The notes under the pieces were generated by a model that was not told the origin of the DNA, searched no databases, and worked only from the letters and a program-made list of their open reading frames with translations. From an uncultured Planctomycetaceae bacterium (lineage in GTDB: Bacteria; Planctomycetota; Planctomycetia; Planctomycetales; Planctomycetaceae): a DNA stretch of 50,299 nt. Location of the stretch: assembly GCA_937916515.1 (NCBI GenBank), contig CALFSX010000268.1:1-50299 (forward strand), read 5' to 3'. Positions 1-48,228 of this stretch are shown piece by piece (the stretch's first letter is position 1; the number at the start of each line of letters is the position of its first letter). The position numbers and the translations under genes were made by a program.

Positions 1-357
1 AAGAGCGAGTCATAGAATTATCTGCGTTTTTAGGCAAGTGCGACTGTAGTACTAGGGCGTTGATGGGTGACGGGGATTGAAGCGAATGCGAGCGGAACTC
101 CGGGGTTTCCTTCGCAAGCTCAGTCCAACCCCGGCCACCCTTGGTAAATCGCGTGCTGATTTTTGATGCGGAGACATCTGGAATTCTGGGATCGCAGTAT
201 CGCTGCCGGTGGAATCTCGATCCAACGGGACGATGTTTTGTGGCTGGCATCTGTTTTCAATGGCAGTTTGCCAATATTCTGCAACTCCTGATTGAGTTTC
301 CGGGGTTAAGTTGGCGTTCACGCGTCGAGAGAAGTTTTGCGACTGAAGTCTTTTTAT
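1..357. other. Left-edge spacer without a convincing gene
   Basis: No reading frame here has recognisable protein features. The stretch holds one copy of repeat family R2 (listed separately) and otherwise unremarkable sequence leading to the dioxygenase gene. The short frames on either strand are translations of the repeat or lack a plausible ribosome binding site. Confidence 0.6.
65..140 (-). repeat. R2 hairpin repeat, copy 1
   Basis: Member of a dispersed palindromic family seen five times in the window. The core inverted repeat is CCGGGGTT at 100-107 and AACCCCGG at 127-134, and an outer GGGTG (65-69) / CACCC (136-140) pairing closes the element. Read on the minus strand it has the shared order GGTGGCCGGGGTTGG, then GAGCTTGCGAAGGAAACC. 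Translation of this repeat in one frame yields a false Met/Val-Ala-Gly-Val-Gly-Leu-Ser peptide. Confidence 0.8.
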
Positions 358-1156: not shown

Positions 1157-1205
1157 TGTGGCCGGGGTTGGATTGAGCTTGCGAAGGAAACGCGGTGGTT
1201 CGCAT
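1157..1205 (+). repeat. R2 hairpin repeat, copy 2 (decayed)
   Basis: Contains the left arm CCGGGGTT at 1162-1169 and the spacer GAGCTTGCGAAGGAAAC. The right arm has drifted to AACGCGGT (1189-1196), so the stem is only partly preserved. It lies about 50 bp after the dioxygenase stop and just before a degenerate R1 copy. Confidence 0.65.
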
Positions 1206-4952: not shown

Positions 4953-5825
4953 CACAATACATCCTTGAACTTCGGGGCCAGTGTTTGATTGGCAATTTGA
5001 ATTGGTGGCAGAGCCGTTAAACAGGTTGTTCTTCGAACGCGGACAACCGCGTCAAACAACATTTCATGATCAATCCGCAAATTCTACCTAAACCATACAA
5101 TCTGCCAAGCTGAATATTTTGGTAAGCCACGCCAGATCGGCAGATTGCAGCATTTATGGTGCTGGAAATAGCGAAGACGTGCAGCGTGACTTTGCCAGAG
5201 AAGGCCCTTAAGTAGCGAACGCAGTTTGGTAACGAGTGCCTGTCGCTGAACGCTGAAATCTTGAATTTCTTGCAGCGTTGGTTATGCGGAAATCTTCACG
5301 AATTTGCCGCCCGAAATTGTCGTTTGCGACTCTGCGATGACGGCTTAAGTGCAGCTTCAACTGAGTATTTGAGAGTCGAATTTGTCGGTGGCCATGATAT
5401 TCGCTTCGAAGTCAGCAACGATTGGCGATATTCACGGCGAAATCGATGTTATCGTCGTCGAGCTGAGTCAGCAAAACGCTGCGAATTGATTCGCTTAACA
5501 GCTGTACATTTTGCGAAGACTGCTGTTAAATGATATCCAGCAGGGGTTAAAGCGGTGCATTGCACACTTCAGAAGAGGTAAAGAAACACGGCGAGTTGAA
5601 CGCAGCGAAAATCAATGCGAAGGAATTCAGCAACGGCACCAGCCGCACTGCTGCATTCAACCGGCATCGGTGTCGTTCGATTTTTCCTGCGATGAGGCGT
5701 TTTGGCAACATGCATGATGTTGCGATTTTCGTTCATCAATTCACGTTTTGAATTCCGCATGCTACAGTTTTTGAAACTTTTGTTTGCAAGTTGAGGGAGC
5801 GATTTCTGCAGGTGGGCCGAATGGA
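4953..5825. other. 870-bp spacer, no gene supported
   Basis: No reading frame shows convincing protein features. Visible structure: an 8-bp inverted repeat AATCTGCC (5099-5106) / GGCAGATT (5139-5146), and a 7-bp hairpin GCAACAT (5705-5711) / ATGTTGC (5717-5723) followed by a short T-rich run. The 90-residue frame at 5261-5533 has no recognisable domain, and I do not call it. Confidence 0.5.
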
Positions 5826-5958
5826 GTTGGAGTCTTACTCAATAAGATGCGTGCACGGTGTGCGCATCATTCACGTAGCGACAACGGAGCGGCTCGGCGC
5901 TTAGGACTTTCCCGGTTCTTTCGCATACCACGCCACCGGGTCAAGGGCGAAGCCCTTG
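5826..5958 (+). repeat. R1 dispersed repeat, copy A
   Basis: Full-length R1 element. In order: GGAGTCTTACTCAA; an imperfect palindrome around GATGCGTGCAC / GTGCGCATC; the invariant block GTAGCGACAACGGAGCGG followed by CTCGGCG; a variable region; CCACGCCACCGGGT; and the terminal hairpin AAGGGCGAAGCCCTT. The element ends about 18 bp before the start codon of the kinase gene and so lies in its 5' leader. Confidence 0.85.
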
Positions 5959-5976
5959 CAGGTTGAATGAAGGCTG

Positions 5977-13148: not shown

Positions 13149-13352
13149 CGACAACGGCCTGAAAAAATACCTACAAACGGGCTGCGTACTAAACGGTTGA
13201 CGAGTTGCAAATTGATGACGCAGCACCCGACACACAAAAAGCCAAGACGTTACAAACCTGGTGATTGCAACAATAGCTTAGGTCCGGTTCACGCCAGCCA
13301 TGACCAACGCTCGGCCGGTGGGAACCGGCCCTACTTTGATCCGATCCGAATT

Positions 13353-13481
13353 AGAGTCTTACTCAAAATGATGCCACGCGCGGTGTGCACGTTGTACGTA
13401 GCGACAACGGAGCGGCTCGGCGATCTTAGCGTTCCACGTCTTTTTACGTGCCACGCCACTGGGTCAAGGGCGAAGCCCTTG
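13353..13481 (+). repeat. R1 dispersed repeat, copy B
   Basis: Full-length R1: AGAGTCTTACTCAAAATGATG, a GCGCGGTGTGCACG palindromic part, the invariant GTAGCGACAACGGAGCGG block followed by CTCGGCG, then CCACGCCACTGGGT and the terminal hairpin CAAGGGC/GCCCTTG. The hairpin end is 6 bp from the stop codon of the DUF3467 gene. Confidence 0.85.
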
Positions 13482-13486
13482 TTAGG

Positions 13487-19263: not shown

Positions 19264-19297
19264 ACGCTTAGCACCAAAATTAGAGCGCAGTTCTGAT

Positions 19298-19369
19298 GTG
19301 GGTGGCCGGGGTTGGACTGAGCATGCGAAGGAAACCCCGGAGTGTCGCTCGTACCTCGGTGCAACCCAC
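19298..19369 (+). repeat. R2 hairpin repeat, copy 3
   Basis: Best-preserved copy. The core stem is CCGGGGTT (19306-19313) / AACCCCGG (19333-19340), enclosed by an outer stem GTGGGT (19298-19303) / ACCCAC (19364-19369). It lies between the M16 and mannose-1-phosphate guanylyltransferase genes. Confidence 0.85.
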
Positions 19370-19461
19370 GCTTTTCATCACGCCACCATTTCCACAAGAT
19401 CTATTTAGCGATTCGCACATGAATTTTGTGCGTCACAGATTGAAGACCAGGGGATTCGAAA

Positions 19462-27147: not shown

Positions 27148-27627
27148 CACACAGATCTGAATTGCCAAGTGTCAACTTCGGGCCAAAGACCTATCAATTT
27201 GCCTGGCCCAGCTTTGCCCCGCAAACAAAACAGCCAACGTATTTGCTGGTGGCCATCAAAGTAGTTGTGGATAACGACATGTCGCCAATGCTGTGGGAGC
27301 AGCCAGGCCTGAATAGAGCAATTTGCATTCAGATATGGGCGTTTTGCGAGGACTGACTGTGAGTCGATGGAGTGCGGTGGTTTGACATCGCTTTTCTTTG
27401 CAGCGCATCAGGCTGACTTGCGACAGGGGTGGCTGTGGTTCGAACGACGTACCAGAGAGACTCCAGGGTTTCCTTCGCAAGCTCAGTCCAACCCCTGCCA
27501 CTCGTCGTAGGCTTTGCGGCGTTGGCGATGCTCAGGATGCTGTTTTAATATTCAGCCAAAGCGTGTTATGCGCGGCTCATCGGGGCGGAGTGTGATGGTT
27601 ATTTTAGATGCCTTGCCCACAGGCTGG
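27148..27627. other. Spacer between convergent genes, holds one R2 copy
   Basis: No gene supported. Contents are the R2 copy at 27425-27502 and plain sequence. The helicase gene and the leftward gene at 27628 converge here, but no clear intrinsic terminator was found for either. Confidence 0.5.
27425..27502 (-). repeat. R2 hairpin repeat, copy 4 (partly decayed)
   Basis: Reverse-orientation R2. The arms are CCAGGGTT (27463-27470) and AACCCCTG (27490-27497); the inner five pairs hold, with one wobble and one mismatch outside. The spacer TCCTTCGCAAGCTCAGTCC matches copies 1 and 3. Confidence 0.75.
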
Positions 27628-29828: not shown

Positions 29829-30293
29829 TGGTAACTAATCTCTTAATCAACTCACAAAAACGATCGGCGAACACAACAAATGGGCTTAGGAAACGTGCGT
29901 CACAGTCAACGACAATCGCTGTTTCCCGGCTTCGACGCAGATTTTCACGGCGACACACCATTGTGAACTCTACTTCCATTGTGCACAAGACATCAGGCGG
30001 ACGAATTCCCATGGAAACCAAGGCGGTCCAGTTATAGCGATCAGCCACACTACTGCCGCAACGCTGAATCATTCCGTGGAATTTTCTTTCGCTTGCCAAT
30101 CGCATTCGAAATGATGCACGCACGATGCGCATGTTGGTCGTAGCGACAACGGAGCGGCTCGGCGGTTAGAGTGTTCCATGTCTTGCTGCGTCCCACGCCA
30201 CCGGGTCAAGGGCGAAGCCCTTGTTGCGTGAAAGCTGGGGCAAAATGCGGTTGAAGTAGGAACTTAGCCAAACTACCGCTATCTTTCCGCATT
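29829..30293. other. Divergent spacer with an R1 copy
   Basis: Separates the leftward cyclophilin gene from the rightward NifV/LeuA-like gene, so both promoters should lie here. R1 copy C occupies 30108-30222. No coding frame is supported. Confidence 0.5.
30108..30222 (+). repeat. R1 dispersed repeat, copy C
   Basis: R1 lacking the first GAGTCTTACTCAA part: AATGATGCACGCACGATGCGCAT, GTAGCGACAACGGAGCGG followed by CTCGGCG, a variable region, CCACGCCACCGGGT, and the hairpin CAAGGGC/GCCCTTG. It ends about 70 bp before the start of the NifV/LeuA-like gene. Confidence 0.83.
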
Positions 30294-36541: not shown

Positions 36542-37126
36542 AAACACGGCCCGAGACCGACACATCGAACTAAAACCTCGCCGTATTAAATGTTCCCGCG
36601 CCAATGTTTTACAGCATCGCCGCTGCCTGATTGATCACTCACGGCCGACTTTCGATTTCGAGAGGGTGGCCGTGGTTGGAGCGAGATACGAGCGAAACCA
36701 CGGAGTCGCCACCTGGAGCTCACCTCAAACCCGACCAACCCCGTTCGCGAAAACCGAAGTCCGTGAACGCACCCGTTCCGTGAACAGGCCTGGTTGGCCC
36801 TGACTGCAACAGAAAACAACGCTACTGCCGAGAACCAGAACCGCTCGGCCGCTCTCATGTTTTTGAAGAAGCAAGCCCCGTTCTGAAATTTGTGGCCTAT
36901 TTTCCCCTCTTCCCGCCGTCCCTTTGCGTGATTGTCAGAATGCATGCGGCTGGCCTTTCCTGAGTGGTTTCGGCAAATACTGCCGCAGTGTTGTGCTGTT
37001 GTTCCCATAGAAGCGTCGATGGAAATCGGGGACGTCGTTGCCCTGGGAAGTTCACCCAAGGGCCGGTGAAGATCCTGTTGTTGCTTACTTTCTGTCACCC
37101 TGTTTCTTGAATGGGTATGATTCTGG
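36542..37126. other. Spacer before the rhomboid gene, holds an R2 copy
   Basis: No gene supported. R2 copy 5 occupies 36664-36712, with related sequence to about 36745. The leftward 170-residue frame here is largely translated repeat. Confidence 0.5.
36664..36712 (+). repeat. R2 hairpin repeat, copy 5, compensatory variant
   Basis: Core stem CCGTGGTT (36669-36676) / AACCACGG (36695-36702). Against copies 1 and 3 one G-C pair is replaced by T-A, so both arms changed and pairing is kept. An additional outer stem GGTGGC (36664-36669) / GCCACC (36707-36712) is perfect except that it shares one base with the core. The loop sequence differs from other copies. Confidence 0.78.
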
Positions 37127-48011: not shown

Positions 48012-48071
48012 AGGAAGCAGTCCCGAGATAACTTCCGGATCGCTGTAGCGAAACTCTTTCGGGGCAGGTCC
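48012..48071 (+). repeat. R3 direct repeat, first copy
   Basis: Its best-conserved 44 nt (48028-48071) match 48185-48228 at 41 positions, with weaker similarity continuing leftward. It contains the small palindrome TCGCT-GT-AGCGA and the CTTTCGGGGCAG block. In the reverse frame both copies read Asp-Leu-Pro-Arg-Asn/Lys-Ser-Phe-Ala-Thr-Ala-Ile, probably an artefact of the repeat. Confidence 0.8.
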
Positions 48072-48169: not shown

Positions 48170-48228
48170 AGGAACAGTGCAGAAATAACTTCTGGATCGC
48201 TGTAGCGAAACTGTTTCGGGGCAGATCC
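48170..48228 (+). repeat. R3 direct repeat, second copy
   Basis: Second copy in the same orientation, 157 bp after the first, ending about 205 bp before the tRNA-Arg 3' end. Three substitutions and one indel separate it from the first copy. Confidence 0.8.

Follow-up and report, generated by a model that had tools for sequence, protein, structure and literature searches.

R2, a REP-type family of paired hairpins in a planctomycete genome, and the paired stem change in one of its copies

The REP rule published in PMC6006769, in the part that treats these elements, places a GTAG or GTGG foot 0–2 nt ahead of a stem-loop, and the short REP hairpins described there have loops of 2–5 nt. The passages of PMC3733652 on tagged REPs report REP dimers lying within larger palindromes in A. 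variabilis and H. neapolitanus, a GTGG variant of the tag (GTAG-20 of O. terrae) and CGTC REPs that occur without transposase genes. In REPINs, compensatory changes in the hairpins are common, according to the pertinent part of PMC3116915.

We studied R2, a dispersed repeat in the DNA of an uncultured Planctomycetaceae bacterium. The window is the whole analysed stretch of 50,299 nucleotides, and its contig is one of 343 that make up an 8.33-Mb assembly. No paper on the R2 repeat was among those listed by searches of an open-access literature collection. We lean towards the reading that R2 is a REP family spread as hairpins by a Y1 transposase, with source copies keeping their pairing and scattered copies drifting. 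A transposase of the RAYT/TnpA-REP type would recognise the foot and the folded hairpin on single-stranded DNA, and only source copies with intact hairpins would spread. Stem changes in the source line would then persist only when both arms change. The scattered copies would drift, and many of them would now lie within MITE-like shells.

Anatomy and distribution of R2

The R2 unit consists of a G[G/T]GTGG foot, followed directly by an 8-bp GC-rich stem with a conserved loop of about 18–20 nt. The full R2 is a 75-bp pair of two unlike hairpins, a and b, which face each other: arm a is followed by the reverse of arm b, and a central CCCCGGGG is common to both. In the 75-nt numbering, the outer stem occupies positions 1–7/69–75, hairpin A 8–13/33–38 and hairpin B 39–44/63–68. 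Most copies fetched from this genome are heterodimers of a and b units with unlike loops and with their feet outward. The window contains five copies, listed here with their parts:

66–139, minus strand: R2 copy 1, two hairpins, a to b
1157–1203, plus strand: R2 copy 2, left half, the right half lost
19267–19296, plus strand: left half of the S-II-like shell of copy 3, flank class II, limits approximate
19301–19375, plus strand: R2 copy 3, two hairpins, right end degenerate
19376–19408, plus strand: right half of the S-II-like shell of copy 3, with the S-II end pattern, limits approximate
27428–27502, minus strand: R2 copy 4, two hairpins, with uncompensated stem changes
36664–36713, plus strand: R2 copy 5, a b-type one-hairpin copy with an outer GGTGGC/GCCACC stem
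36664–36669, plus strand: 5' foot of copy 5, GGGTGG (the G[G/T]GTGG foot is invariant in a relative)
36670–36677, plus strand: left stem of copy 5, CCGTGGTT, with the changed base T36673
36696–36703, plus strand: right stem of copy 5, AACCACGG, with the matching change A36700

None of the five copies falls within the longest ORFs, but shorter mechanical ORFs overlap copies 2 and 5, as judged from an ORF list made without a gene caller. A gapped pattern for both arms matched three times in the window versus 0.00 expected from shuffles, and the 16-base arm, with at most two mismatches, gave 91 matches in the genome versus 4 for the reversed pattern. These two counts rule out a chance origin of R2. 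Many of the arm matches face each other about 75 bp apart, and the fetched stretches contain 67 distinct two-armed copies from this genome.

The window carries other repeats as well. A dispersed repeat of at least 109 nt, 73–84% alike, lies at 5852–5960, 13375–13483 and 30117–30225 (with 5817–5850 and 13341–13374); it can fold into several hairpins and is unrelated to R2 by eye. A 54-nt direct repeat at 48018–48071 and 48175–48228 is 89% alike, its copies being 157 bases apart.

At an E value of 1e-6, R2 matched 7 of the 8 genomes examined in the genus, 1 of the 28 others in the family and 0 of 22 in the class. The match totals come from scoring up to 150, or up to 83, candidates per genome, with both strands of a copy often listed, and are not copy numbers. 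Named matches from the collection that carry R2 are planctomycete MAGs, Fuerstiella sp. included; five of 65 collection stretches, from Verrucomicrobia, Spartobacteria, Chthoniobacterales and Pyrinomonadaceae, were set aside, being alike among themselves and coding-looking by eye. The two hairpins are often set apart in relatives by a spacer whose sequence varies. In RI_301 and bin120 it measures 14–30 nt and differs from copy to copy (L096, L120, L139, L283–L290, L316–L324). Copies of 77 nt in G001 (L297, L298, L299, L303) form a subfamily with one additional base on both outer arms (GGYGG/CCRCC), often without a standard pair there.

The foot was assessed in the relative IP29b_bin.70 with a search pattern that excluded it. 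The pattern gave 45 matches and its reversed form 5; fetching 30 loci yielded the 28 distinct copies used here. It turned out that G[G/T]GTGG stands directly before the a-hairpin stem in 28/28 of them, with no clear conservation beyond the foot. Only five of these copies have two hairpins; the other 23 are lone hairpins, so the foot persists even where it has nothing to pair with. The comparison with REP-type elements made in the first-pass annotation is supported: R2 has a conserved foot beside a hairpin and many dispersed copies, often dimers, and it shares the inverted REP doublet with REPINs. The R2 loop is longer than the 2–5 nt of short REP hairpins; REPs can also form a compound stem-loop, and for R2 the inner stem of such a form is plausible in some relatives only.

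Larger inverted repeats around R2

Many R2 copies lie within larger inverted repeats, of which this genome has at least three kinds. The S-I shell has the terminal inverted repeats (TIRs) GGGTGCAGTMA, and 8-bp target duplications accompany it both here and in two relatives. The duplications match in 7–8 of 8 bases in 5 of 40 elements (2 exact) versus 0.13 expected. A wider scan, in which the ends were required to lie at least 10 bases outside the core, found them in 16 of 180 copies versus 0–8 (mean 3.4) with shuffled flanks. By its TIRs and target duplications, the latter present in a minority of copies, the R2-bearing S-I shell is MITE-like. A coreless S-II-like shell was found once in this genome (L169) and may be a deletion.

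It nevertheless appears unlikely that R2 is a mere MITE interior, moved by a DDE transposase that would use the TIRs of the shell while the hairpins stay idle. The S-I ends and duplications fit such movement, but 35 of the 40 S-I elements have no such duplication at the threshold used, and duplications are established for S-I, not for S-II or S-III. Shells of at least three unlike kinds enclose R2, and it is also found as lone footed hairpins that have no paired outer end. Moreover, S-I shells contain other cores too: in G001, S-I also encloses other palindromic cores, including one GTAG-tagged pair (L394). Finally, with one mismatch allowed, no inward pair of S-I ends lies at transposon distance among the matches listed in three genomes, and an autonomous transposon with S-I ends was rejected for these matches.

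We looked at the centres of S-I in 20 stretches picked mostly where no R2 match was listed, which do not estimate the R2 occupancy of shells. The centres (L375–L394 of G001, L297, L298 and L156) hold R2 or other palindromes, one with GGGACAATGGTCCC, one GTAG-tagged and one with GCTAGCCGC.

A tentative reading, to which we give a minor chance, makes R2 one layer of a two-layer system. REP heterodimers, as single-stranded hairpins, would enter MITE palindromes at their centres, and the cut-and-paste route of the MITE would then carry the composite. If this were true, two unrelated kinds of transposase would spread cores and shells and exchange them.

Pairing of the arms within and across genomes

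The first-pass annotation had noticed that copy 5 differs from copies 1 and 3 in one base pair, with both arms changed, and this difference was confirmed. Copies 1 (139–66, minus strand) and 3 (from 19301, plus strand) carry CCGGGGTT/AACCCCGG, and copy 5 carries its own pair of arms, in which the changed pair is T36673–A36700. The loop of copy 5 is 18 nt long; the right stem is followed by AGTC and then by GCCACC (36708–36713), so that the copy ends at 36713, one base past the end first given. An outer stem had also been ascribed to copies 1, 3 and 5. It is complete in copy 5. Copy 1 pairs its foot with a distal GTCACC. Copy 3 has a degenerate sequence at the regular distal place and a GCCACC farther along, at 19382–19387. 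The remaining copies do not bear out the idea that pairing is kept by compensation: the hairpin A arms of copy 4, CAGGGGTT/AACCCTGG, contain one mismatch and one G–T, both uncompensated, and copy 2 has no right half at all.

To quantify pairing, 240 arm pairs were reduced to 184 by removing strand doubles, to 181 by removing equal sequences and to 180 with long enough flanks. Complete helix columns were available for 172 copies (61 from this genome and 111 from relatives), and 59 a-to-b copies (27 and 32, respectively) were free of gaps. Within this genome, pairing in hairpin A is no better than shuffled (265 Watson–Crick pairs versus 260.8; 318 of 2000 shuffles as high), and in hairpin B it is slightly better (249 versus 240.1; 80 of 2000). 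Overall, the Watson–Crick fraction is 0.702 versus 0.671 expected under independent decay, and identity to the consensus is 0.816 in stems versus 0.870 in loops. Most arm changes are uncompensated, and the clearest exception is the originally noted pair in hairpin B. There, 8 of 10 copies with T have A facing it, and 11 copies have A without T. At the same pair in hairpin A, 14 copies have T, of which 2 have A and 12 do not (2 of these are T–G). One-sided Fisher tests, which ignore shared descent, give 0.050 for hairpin A and 0.0008 for hairpin B. Selection of each copy in this genome as a fold is therefore unsupported overall, given the stem and loop identities and the near-shuffled pairing. 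Arm mutations without compensation, which had been named beforehand as the observation that would speak against selection of the fold, occur in most copies, though not at that pair in hairpin B.

Across genomes the picture is different. In all 172 copies, hairpin A has 811 Watson–Crick pairs versus 760.2 in shuffles and hairpin B 857 versus 804.0, and none of 2000 shuffles was as high in either case. In the 111 copies of relatives alone, hairpin B remains above all shuffles (608 versus 576.3), and hairpin A is weaker (102 of 2000 as high). The rival fold is one long 75-nt hairpin, which is the lowest-energy fold of the consensus under RNA and DNA parameters. Its two helices show no excess pairing in the 172 copies (204 and 267 of 2000 shuffles as high). 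In the 59 gap-free copies, the three-stem fold has a covariation of 0.154 versus 0.118 (0 of 500 shuffles as high), and the long hairpin 0.118 versus 0.115 (182 of 500). Thus, the long hairpin was rejected as the conserved fold despite its low energy.

The main signal comes from helix position 5. It is mostly T–A here; among the 111 copies from relatives, 78 have C–G at this position in hairpin A and 22 in hairpin B. The counts of doubly changed pairs (123 of 500 shuffles as high) and of pair types (215 of 500) are ordinary, so the covariation signal leans on few pairs. Since it lies mainly at pair 12–34, where this genome and its relatives differ, few events may be involved. Both versions of the pair coexist within IP29b_bin.70, where 28 copies comprise 16 T–A, 10 C–G, 2 C–A and 0 T–G (Fisher 5e-6). 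This coexistence, together with the covariation of the local hairpins and its absence in the long one, bears out at the level of the family the earlier suggestion that the folded form mattered for spread. We read the cross-genome covariation, taken with the decay seen here, as a sign that source copies kept their pairing and scattered copies lost it. The paired change of copy 5 is real, but what it reflects seems to be the past of the R2 family and not selection acting on every single copy.

Template switching at a hairpin copies one arm into the other. Such neutral repair of imperfect palindromes would change both arms in one step with the fold unselected, and we consider it an improbable source of the paired changes. 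A change from G–C to T–A cannot pass through a G–T pair, and T and A do occur together in the eight hairpin B copies counted above; both points agree with repair. However, most changed pairs here are still mismatched, which indicates that arm correction is not general. In addition, the main cross-genome change, T–A to C–G, has its T–G and C–A intermediates present, and repair leaves the conservation of foot and loop unexplained. Selection of the copies in place as RNA or DNA structures, at 3' mRNA ends, as terminators or similar, is very improbable: copies 2, 3 and 5 do sit 47, 38 and about 123 bases past the stop of a long ORF, but stems here are less conserved than loops (an objection that weakens in gap-free relatives, where the two are about equally conserved), pairing is close to that of independent decay, and Rfam at gathering thresholds yields only a tRNA in the window.

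Y1 transposase genes and comparison with known systems

We also assessed whether R2 accompanies Y1 transposase genes, as its earlier comparison with elements moved by RAYT-like transposases implies. Y1_Tnp matches occur at 6 places in this genome and in 46 of 58 relatives. The fetched set covers 30 of 37 Y1 places in relatives. No R2 arm was found in the fetched flanks of the 6 places here. In a RAYT-associated family the same REP flanks the Y1 gene; no pair of REPs with R2 stems does so at any fetched Y1 gene. Among 36 Y1 loci of seven genomes, an R2 element lies near one (L338) versus about 1.4 expected by chance, by our own estimate. This element (1230–1333) is 60–110 bp beyond the 3' end of a GGGTGG-clade Y1 gene (frame 1441–1926) and is the only one found close to a gene of that clade. 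In the complete genome G011, 7 of the 8 Y1 loci were fetched, and an R2 arm lies within 3 kb of none of these 7. The Y1 search gave no match in R2-bearing G014 (same places as G002) or in G010, which has one R2 match. One of the Y1 genes of the present genome (L001, G000:C216) has a REP of its own, which is unrelated to R2 and stands in its flanks in four copies (CCACCGGCTTCAGCCGGTGG and variants).

The foot of R2 does recur beside Y1 genes. GGGTGG-footed hairpins with non-R2 stems occur at seven of 43 Y1 loci; as a control, the 50-kb window gave one non-R2 GGGTGG-footed hairpin match and one with a GAGTGG foot. The seven loci share one clade (support 97/98), which also includes L343, in a tree of 39 of the 43 loci (no frame was found for L005, L350, L425 and L427). 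A later tree, also without L351, L356 and L362, has no bootstrap. With a profile of this clade (clade 1), 12 further high-scoring loci were fetched, and 8 of them have GGGTGG-footed hairpins; L454, L455, L460 and L461 are clade members by profile score only, and 5 of the 8 tree-placed loci have the hairpins. GGGTGG hairpins were also seen in 6 of 13 other Y1 loci, 4 of which group together (97, SH-aLRT only).

One of these other loci is L466 of G018, a genome of the same family. At 1400–2141 it holds a Y1 gene with three REPs whose loops are nearly those of the R2 a-hairpin; the flanking REPs are inverted, with GGGTGG and GTGTGG feet and a stem unlike that of R2. In a loop test of 28 comparisons with uncorrected p-counts, an L466 loop scored 14.5 against the G011 a-loop versus a shuffled maximum of 11.0 (0 of 5000), and L466 loops scored 10.0 and 8.0 against the a-loop of this genome (1 and 4 of 5000 shuffles as high). 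The b-loop has no likeness to the L466 loops (967 and 1533 of 5000 as high). Clade-1 Y1 genes above 150 bits occur in 5 of 12 R2-bearing genomes and in 11 of 28 others, an absence of association that rules them out as a predictor of R2. This genome has no Y1 gene above 150 bits in clade 1, its best scores being 60.0 and 44.5 bits.

Spread of R2 by a Y1 (RAYT) transposase is likely, although the link is indirect: the foot and the a-loop resemble those of REPs beside Y1 genes of other genomes, yet no fetched Y1 gene is flanked by R2. Overall, the interpretation in the first-pass annotation is supported in part. The transposase step would have been carried out by an enzyme whose gene was presumably lost or never present here; its absence could reflect gene loss, action in trans or an assembly gap.

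If R2 is such a REP family, its copies from several genomes show that even a genuine compensatory change in a REP may reveal little about selection on the copies under study, because the signal belongs to the source line. The foot and loop of this planctomycete REP appear tied to Y1 clades, which makes the recognition rule testable. R2 is also a case of REP dimers centred in several unlike larger palindromes.

The comparison with described systems is as follows, for those parts of the cited papers that concern these elements. Like the GTAG-tagged REPs and REP dimers of PMC3733652, R2 consists of short tagged stem-loops in many copies, often dimers with unlike loops. R2 differs from them in its G[G/T]GTGG foot, its long loop and the lack of an R2-flanked Y1 gene among those found, and also in that one type of R2 shell has target duplications, which the sections of PMC3733652 on those REPs do not mention. 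With the REPIN (PMC3116915) R2 shares an inverted REP pair able to fold; the REPIN pair makes one long hairpin, whereas R2 covariation favours two local hairpins. TnpA-REP class 3 (PMC6006769) includes planctomycete Y1 genes flanked by unusual, possibly high-copy hairpins, as here, but its foot is CnGA, and the R2 loop is longer than in the short REP hairpins of the same paper. The S-I shell resembles MITEs in its TIRs and 8-bp target duplications. Unlike MITEs, R2 is not bound to one shell and is also found as lone hairpins.
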